Origin: Ideonella sp. WA131b
Lineage (GTDB): Bacteria; Pseudomonadota; Gammaproteobacteria; Burkholderiales; Burkholderiaceae_C
Direction: 5' to 3'
Assembly: GCA_023657425.1 (NCBI GenBank)
Contig: JAGTJW010000001.1
Span: 310,001 to 374,000 of the forward strand
DNA length: 64,000 nt
The position numbers and the translations under genes are program-made. This document shows, piece by piece, positions 34,410-37,931 of this stretch (the stretch's first letter is position 1; the number at the start of each line of letters is the position of its first letter). The notes beneath the pieces are model-generated. The model was not told the DNA's origin, did not search any database, and worked only from the letters and a program-made list of their open reading frames with translations.

Positions 34410-34456
34410 CCTAGGAGCGTGGGCGGCAGAAATCCAGCCCCGCGCCGGGGCGGCCA
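34410..34456 (+). repeat. Solo copy of the end of the 37.7-kb inverted-repeat element
   Basis: These 47 bp are identical to 37655-37701, the left end of the inverted-repeat element. Both start CCTAGGAGCGTGGGCGG and run on through the GC-rich CGCGCCGGGG segment. No right end follows at the expected distance. The copy lies in the divergent intergenic region between the reductase gene and katG. Confidence 0.85.
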
Positions 34457-34496: not shown

Positions 34497-36758
<2,262 letters not shown>

Positions 36759-36781
36759 AGGGGCCTAGCCCTTGAAGGGGC

Positions 36782-36880
36782 CTACAGCCAGGTCCACAAC
36801 TGGCGCAGCCAGCCGGGGGCCTGAAAGCGGGACGGGCGGTAGTGCTGCCGCAGGCTGCGGCGGGGGGTGGTTGCGGGCAT
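36782..36880 (-). CDS. 32-codon ORF behind a LexA box
   Basis: The predicted peptide begins MPATTPRRSLRQHYRPSR and ends APGWLRQLWTWL. It is very basic in the first half, with a Trp-rich amphipathic end. CAGGAG lies 6 nt upstream of the ATG, as good as any ribosome-binding site in this window. A LexA-type operator is 21 bp upstream of the start. No other frame in 36759-36967 is better. The peptide is not recognised; its shape would allow membrane contact. It is convergent with katG. Confidence 0.55.
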   Translation of the reverse strand: MPATTPRRSLRQHYRPSRFQAPGWLRQLWTWL

Positions 36881-36901
36881 GGCGGGCTCCTGATGCGGGT
36901 A

Positions 36902-36917
36902 CTGTATGCCCATACAG
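36902..36917 (-). promoter_or_regulatory. LexA (SOS) box
   Basis: CTGT-N8-ACAG, within the perfect-arm palindrome ACTGTATG-CC-CATACAGT (36901-36918), matches the beta/gammaproteobacterial LexA operator. It stands immediately upstream of the 32-codon ORF on the minus strand. On the plus strand there is no gene to control for over 10 kb, so the small ORF is the only candidate target. Confidence 0.75.
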
Positions 36918-36967
36918 TCCTGGGCGCAAGGCTTGGAGCGTGGGCGGCATCCCGGCCGCCCGCGCGC

Positions 36968-37315
36968 TCAAGTCAGGAGATCGTCCGCGTCGTCCAGCAG
37001 ACCGGCCAGCAAGGCACCGCTGGCCAGGTCGCCCGTCACGAGCAGGGCCTCGCGCGCGCCGAAGCCGGGGCGTGCCGATGCGGGGGCGGCTGCGCCCGCC
37101 GCGGCGGGCTGAGGCGCCAGCGGGCTGTCGGTGCGGTCGACGGCGCCGCTGCGTTGCGCGGCCAGCCAGCGCGCCAGCAGCAGCTCCACGGCGTCGGCCC
37201 GCGACGACGCCAGCAGCCGCGCGGCGCGGCGCAGCTCGGGATCGTCGGCGGGCGCGGGCGCCCTCAACAGGGCACGCACTTGCGCCCACAGCCGGTCGGC
37301 GTCCAGGCGGTCCAT
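36968..37315 (-). CDS. Hypothetical protein
   Basis: A 115-aa, Ala/Leu-rich, acidic, mostly helical protein: MDRLDADRLWAQVRALLRA..., DDPELRRAARLLASSRADAVELLLARWL, and a C-terminal LLVTGDLASGALLAGLLDDADDLL. No signal peptide or known domain. It starts 7 bp after the stop of the 59-codon Cys-rich gene and probably forms an operon with it. A function is not suggested by the context. Confidence 0.55.
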   Translation of the reverse strand: MDRLDADRLWAQVRALLRAPAPADDPELRRAARLLASSRADAVELLLARWLAAQRSGAVDRTDSPLAPQPAAAGAAAPASARPGFGAREALLVTGDLASGALLAGLLDDADDLLT

Positions 37316-37654: not shown

Positions 37655-37931
37655 CCTAGGAGCGTGGGCGGCAGAAATCCAGCCCCGCGCCGGGGCGGCC
37701 AAAGCCACTGGCGTAGGCGCGTCGCGCAGCGCGGGCTCTACGCCCGCGCCAGCGGCGCAACACCCGCCAGCGGCTTTGGCCGCCCCGGCCCTTCGGGTTG
37801 GGCCGATTTCGGGGCCCTTGCGGCGTTGCCACGCTGGCCCGGGCGTATAGCCCGGGCTGCGCGCGGCGCCTGGCCTGGGCCCCGAAGTCGGCCCAACGCG
37901 GGGCAGGATTTCTGCCGCCCACGCTCCTAGG
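37655..37931. mobile_element. 277-bp inverted-repeat element (MITE-like or REP-type)
   Basis: The left end (37655-37680) and right end (37906-37931) are a perfect 26-bp inverted repeat starting CCTAGGAGCGTGGGCGG. The interior is about 225 bp, very GC-rich and without a convincing gene. The 47-bp left end has a solo copy at 34410-34456, and a 15-bp core (GGAGCGTGGGCGGCA) occurs at 36935-36949. The right end touches the hsdR stop codon (37932). No target duplication is clear. The rest of 37503-37654 shows nothing. Confidence 0.7.

Follow-up and report, generated by a model that had tools for sequence, protein, structure and literature searches.

A 32-codon ORF headed by a LexA-type operator lies on the minus strand of the window (the whole 64-kb stretch of Ideonella sp. 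WA131b DNA that was analysed). It stands alone between a convergent gene ending at 36758, which we take to be katG, and a 115-aa ORF on its own strand, the stop of which falls at 36968; given this layout of neighbours, the peptide gene is the only one that the operator could sensibly serve. The features of the locus are the following:

36751..36784, no strand: two tandem 17-nt copies of GCCCTTGAAGGGGCCTA, each containing a small palindrome, which span the ends of the peptide gene and katG
36782..36880, minus strand: 32-codon ORF MPATTPRRSLRQHYRPSRFQAPGWLRQLWTWL plus stop, supported by the ORF call, conservation and selection
36785..36817, minus strand: conserved C-terminal segment P-x-W-L-x-x-x-W-x-W-L (residues 22-32), its P, W, W and W invariant in 49 members
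36887..36891, minus strand: ribosome-binding site AGGAG, 6 nt before the ATG, read from the sequence
36901..36906, minus strand: predicted -10 element TACAGT (operator right half plus T), read from the sequence and from aligned promoters
36902..36917, minus strand: LexA-type operator CTGTATGCCCATACAG, with perfect palindromic half-sites CTGTAT-N4-ATACAG, kept in relatives
36924..36929, minus strand: predicted -35 element TTGCGC, 17 nt upstream of TACAGT, read from the sequence and from TTG in aligned promoters

The original prediction, made from sequence alone, had claimed a near-perfect LexA box, and this held: the operator at 36902-36917 shows 0 mismatches to CTGTATNNNNATACAG and is the sole site within 2 mismatches across the window, where 0.14 such sites are expected by chance. 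Equally upheld were the claims that the 32-codon ORF is the only gene that this box can control, that a strong ribosome-binding site precedes it at the right distance, and that the encoded peptide is basic with a Trp-rich end (charge +6, no acidic residues, C-terminal end PGWLRQLWTWL). The operator ends 21 nt before the peptide ATG and overlaps a predicted promoter of the form TTGCGC-17-TACAGT, a site not called in a generic promoter scan of the window. The ATG occupies 36880-36878, the final sense codon ends at 36785 and the stop lies at 36784-36782. An alternative 43-aa reading would begin at an ATG at 36913; the 32-codon start is preferred because the start codon of the longer form falls within the operator and ahead of the predicted transcription start. 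Likewise, a Shine-Dalgarno sequence precedes the matching 32-codon start in most of the relatives' loci compared.

The peptide model is of limited confidence (mean pLDDT 72, pTM 0.24), and its sole structured part is a predicted C-terminal helix (residues 23-31, pLDDT ~84) of moderate amphipathicity (moment 0.50 in the window peptide). Basic character is common to the peptide family, with a median charge of +5 and 25 of 75 peptides free of acidic residues. No stretch capable of spanning a membrane was found in these 75 peptides, the highest 17-residue Kyte-Doolittle mean being 0.55.

Repeats also occur around the locus. No terminator was called at the tandem GCCCTTGAAGGGGCCTA copies. A MITE-like 43-nt inverted repeat, with 91% complementary arms separated by 191 nt, occupies 37655-37931; the end of one arm recurs exactly at 34413-34434, on the far side of katG, and an 18-nt partial copy lies at 36932-36949, just upstream of the peptide promoter.

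Conservation of the peptide and its operator

An initial search found the peptide in 15 of 61 genomes, and a profile search found it in 53 of 81 genomes of the genus. In the family sample the profile matched 80 of 399 genomes, or 77 once 3 false genomes were removed; about 20 candidates were scored per genome in the family samples, so the family counts are lower bounds. The rejected entries (G092, G109, G086 and G285:C45, the removal of which costs these 3 genomes) are not peptide-like and have no box within 3 mismatches. Peptide-bearing relatives include Rubrivivax, Azohydromonas, Rhizobacter, Piscinibacter, Ideonella, Inhella and Methylibium. Within the order sample (399 genomes) 10 genomes matched, two of them being family members (the window's own genome and G151); the other 8 partial matches were taken for chance, a judgement that does not rest on their inspection, and nothing convincing was seen outside the family. 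As 28 of the 81 genus genomes and most family genomes gave no match, the latter under counts that are lower bounds, the gene is dispensable or replaceable.

Members are 26-35 residues long and share the core motif R-x-x-Y-x-P...P-x-W-L-x-x-x-W-x-W-[FL]-stop. In 49 members the R, Y, P, P, W, W and W are invariant, and among 54 more divergent members the R and second P remain invariant, while Y, P and the three W are each kept in at least 90%. This retention of single residues up to the extreme C terminus suggests a specific docking partner, an inference from the pattern alone. Three genus members (L185, L187 and L193) have FWLLF at the C terminus in place of W-x-W-[FL] and nevertheless keep boxes with 0 mismatches, and the last Trp is therefore replaceable.

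The ORF is under purifying selection in its true frame only. Across 23 disjoint pairs, pN/pS was 0.32 in the true frame vs 0.96 and 2.23 in the shifted frames, and over all 498 pairs it was 0.48 vs 0.93 and 1.50 (65 of the 82 loci could be placed in a fixed frame for this test). No internal stops appeared in the profile-search rows for the genus (81 genomes) or the family (399 genomes); a row from G299 does contain a stop, but it is a partial, non-peptide match.

The operator is retained together with the ORF. In the 130 nt that precede the start codon, 65 of 82 non-redundant loci with aligned peptides carry a box of 2 or fewer mismatches vs 4 of 2632 control windows drawn from the same loci; with 3 mismatches allowed, the counts are 76 of 82 vs 13 of 2632. 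These loci are related and do not represent 82 independent events. A further set consisted of peptides absent from every alignment (15 candidates fetched, 11 peptide-like, some close to aligned members, such as that of G063, which differs from one by two residues): the box stays within 3 mismatches for 10 of the 11 and has 4 for the remaining one, at 37 to 58 nt before the match. When 78 promoters were aligned on the box, TACAGT, i.e., the right half-site plus T, occupied the -10 position in 61, and TTG lay 17 nt upstream of it in 48. In 21 of the 78 a second box (at most 4 mismatches) starts exactly 18 nt upstream, with a weaker pile of 10 at 13 nt. It is thus shown that a conserved ORF, selected as protein, is accompanied by a LexA-type operator held in place over a promoter whose -10 element lies in a half-site.

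Six of the 82 loci lack a box at the cutoff of three mismatches. Two of these carry a common variant, CTGATNTTTTGTACAG, with four mismatches, and in two others (L040 and L139) a second gene is interposed between the box or promoter region and the peptide. At L040/L074 a box is present further upstream; at L139 there is none in the stretch read, although its sister copies L140 and L141 do have one. No box was found at L049/L087, which shares the second-gene-first order of L040 and L139, nor at L159, the sister of which (L160) has one.

Among the features expected of an SOS regulon member, three are present, namely a box over the promoter, retention of the box with the gene, and boxes at the cognate lexA and recA; a fourth, induction by DNA damage, is inferred. 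In the window's genome a pair of boxes 18 nt apart stands at lexA and a single box at recA, every one of them with two mismatches, so the peptide box is nearer to the palindrome than any of these. In E. coli, LexA boxes close to the consensus are associated with tight repression and strong induction (PMC8145889).

As for the remainder of the original prediction, the suggested Burkholderiales search for the ORF together with its box was run, and both were found to be kept together across the genus and family. Stops in relatives that keep the operator would have counted against the proposal, and none were seen (the 28 match-less genus genomes fall outside this check). An undescribed SOS-regulated micropeptide is accordingly supported by joint retention and purifying selection, its induction by damage being inferred. 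The proposed membrane-active or division-inhibiting character stays a suggestion from the peptide's shape, and no transmembrane-capable stretch occurs in the 75 peptides; function remains an inference.

A second small gene beside the peptide

Through the exception loci another small ORF came to light, here termed the partner, of ~60-80 residues and with the consensus MNAPLLPEVL...LPLAxxGVxRxVWxSRFGxMLIEVxxGxVxVNGxxVEP. Of the 81 genus genomes 27 have a match to it, as do 40 of the 399 in the family sample; without weak rows (those above E 1e-7: G496 and G481:C112 in the genus; G268, G424, G341 and G410 in the family) the counts are 26 and 36. Counting as adjacent those genes on the same strand within 600 nt, the partner adjoins the peptide in 18 genus genomes, always with the peptide first, and forms 19 adjacent pairs in 16 family genomes, with the peptide first in 12 and the partner first in 7. 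Co-occurrence is strong in both samples (p = 4e-4 in the genus and 3e-13 in the family; Fisher, relatedness uncorrected). Both genes also occur alone: at least 29 of the 53 peptide-bearing genus genomes gave no partner match, the window's own genome gave none although all 36 of its candidates were scored, and in 10 family genomes the partner occurs without a peptide match. Solo partners carry boxes of their own at 19 of 20 scored loci vs 0 of 620 control windows; 24 loci were given, of which 4 without a motif findable by the script were left out, and several solo rows that had no locus lie outside this count. From the conserved boxes and the co-occurrence we infer two small SOS-associated families that frequently occur together. 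An all-vs-all ORF comparison of 83 loci listed no other neighbour group common to more than 5 or 6 loci.

The partner is predicted to fold as a three-stranded sheet (core pLDDT ~90). Its fold found no PDB match with E below 0.001, a search for a solved relative gave none (best E 0.07), and neither Pfam nor NCBIfam gave a family for the two proteins scanned. In the order sample it was matched in 0 of 110 genomes, which is uninformative without any positive. Seven partner matches contain an internal stop (G002, G015, G021, G311, G433, G375:C13:25172 and G387); at least in G002 the stop falls beyond the natural end, and the others could be decayed copies. A solo-partner subgroup (L198, L207, L235, L244, L245, L250 and L252) has a different, RVTSIHELR-like end, and its boxes are mostly CTGGATGNNNGTACAG. 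Two partner-first copies (L087, 3186-4319; L288, 1031-1837) lie near an ORF beginning MCYSA, which we take to be SRAP/YedK-like. L288 also has an integrase-like ORF, and the L087 and L288 copies seem, by inference, to be located on genomic islands. Genome G126 has three such copies.

Neither gene could be assigned to a known family or to a phage or plasmid. No Pfam family (PF03846 included) was found for four peptides at E up to 10, and no match to a family model, PDB entry, phage, plasmid or viral contig reached significance. By tblastn, no match was found for the peptide in plasmids (two queries) or phages (one query), nor for the partner in plasmids (one protein), and nothing was confirmed in viral contigs for either profile. 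A phage or plasmid origin was set aside for lack of matches, the phage collection having been searched with the peptide only and plasmids with both. Several weak rows were left unused. Two of three peptides hit PHROG 30075 (E 0.058 and 0.011), and 4 of 54 hit the eukaryotic binding region PF14475 of Pfam (best E 0.006), beside two single-member rows; on the partner side, one protein hit PF22421 (E 0.29) and PHROG gave five rows (best E 0.06). Such a peptide was not found in the open-access literature searched, a scope that leaves out most subscription papers. LexA-controlled small effectors are a known kind, and it is likely that this family and its partner are new.

Possible roles of the peptide

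That the ORF is a LexA-controlled protein gene is very likely, in the absence of expression or induction data, and the peptide appears to found a new small-protein family in Burkholderiaceae (in the broad GTDB sense), its repression by LexA being inferred. We lean, with no great margin, toward a division or growth checkpoint effector that acts through a protein target, a function that is inferred without phenotype data. LexA bound at the operator would block RNA polymerase, and DNA damage, through RecA-driven cleavage of LexA, would release an mRNA with a very short leader (~14 nt), translated from the strong Shine-Dalgarno. The R..Y.P...P.W...W.W motif and the amphipathic C-terminal helix may then dock on a single protein target, either cytoplasmic or at the membrane surface; the docked peptide would restrain division or growth during DNA repair, a job done elsewhere by SulA or SidA. 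The partner, often in the same operon, would probably modulate or assist the peptide, which in the window's genome would act without it.

This reading is taken as the most likely because small LexA-controlled division inhibitors such as SidA are known, no SulA was found in 37 genomes, and the peptides have no membrane-spanning segment. In its favour stand conservation, frame-specific selection, operator retention, the promoter inside the operator, the lexA and recA boxes, the docking-like residues, the lack of SulA and a partner under the same type of box; against it stand the missing expression, induction and phenotype data, the lack of a transmembrane helix, unlike SidA, and the many match-less genomes, which show the gene to be dispensable or replaceable. 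SidA of Caulobacter crescentus is a 29-aa, LexA-controlled inner-membrane protein that acts on FtsW/FtsN and stops division (PMC4211646); the peptides resemble it in LexA control and approximate length but have no single transmembrane helix. SulA (PF03846) is an SOS-induced division inhibitor, the role proposed here, and is a much larger protein. None of the 37 genus genomes searched matched PF03846; this is weak evidence, since many bacteria lack this Pfam family. The division role is an inference that does not rest on any comparison with known division inhibitors at the sequence or interaction level.

Two main rivals remain, both unlikely. In the first, the SOS-induced basic, Trp-rich peptide would disturb or insert in the inner membrane, lower the proton motive force and slow the cell, as does TisB of E. 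coli, which is likewise short, at 29 aa, and controlled through a strong LexA box (PMC8145889). Small size, charge, an amphipathic Trp-rich C-terminal helix and this shared LexA control speak for it. However, TisB is hydrophobic, with a structured leader and control by the IstR-1 RNA, whereas the window peptide is basic and does not meet the description of a hydrophobic membrane peptide; its leader, predicted at ~14 nt, would be too short to hold a structured 5' UTR like that of tisB, the Rfam rows near the gene are all sub-threshold and give no antitoxin RNA family, and the conservation of single residues exceeds what a general amphipathic pattern needs. In the second, the peptide would be a DinI-like modulator that binds part of the SOS machinery (RecA, LexA, a translesion polymerase or the sliding clamp) and does not stop division. 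SOS control, the docking-like motif, the association with a second small SOS-associated gene and the fact that solo copies work without a fixed neighbour favour this view; against it, searches of Pfam and NCBIfam revealed no resemblance to any known SOS modulator. The window peptide's end, QLWTWL, slightly resembles a clamp-binding motif, but its Gln is not conserved.

A protein toxin-antitoxin pair, formed by peptide and partner under LexA control, is very unlikely: adjacency and strong co-occurrence support it, but both genes occur alone and are not in fixed pairing, their order varies, and a lone toxin would not persist so widely. A chance ORF, with the operator serving a non-coding RNA or nothing, has in its favour only that short ORFs are common in GC-rich DNA (53 of at least 25 aa in 6 kb), and it is all but excluded, being rejected on operator retention against controls and on frame-specific purifying selection, with the unbroken frames in genus and family, the residues invariant up to the stop codon and the matching Shine-Dalgarno also counting against it.

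Returning to the checkpoint effector, a bolder form of this reading is possible, in which peptide and partner constitute an undescribed two-part SOS checkpoint module of Burkholderiaceae that does SulA's work by a different mechanism. The soluble Trp-motif peptide would hit a divisome or growth target, the co-induced small beta-sheet partner would tune or deliver it, and lineages such as the window's would have lost the partner and kept the peptide. How the genus, with no SulA match in those 37 genomes, halts division under DNA damage is an open question, for which two small families with conserved LexA-type boxes, and no Pfam or NCBIfam model in the members scanned, offer a short, testable list of candidate effectors. 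The peptide is shorter than many gene callers accept, and so is probably unannotated.

Predicted LexA-regulated hypothetical genes of beta-proteobacteria, hypA and hypB, have been described (PMC3323433). They share LexA regulation and bacterial class with the peptide and partner, although the species there are Burkholderia, Ralstonia, Cupriavidus and Variovorax; either might conceivably be the partner gene, the relevant text giving no sequence or locus tag. Elsewhere in the window's genome, a perfect CTGTATGAACATACAG box (G000:C1:295056-295071, L016) lies upstream of a long ORF that we take to be an MmeI-type restriction-modification enzyme, and a CTGTACGGATGAACAG box (G000:C2:985291-985306, L024) lies at the start of an ORF that we take to be an integron integrase, a class of enzymes whose SOS control is the subject of PMC3108266; both sites are outside the window.
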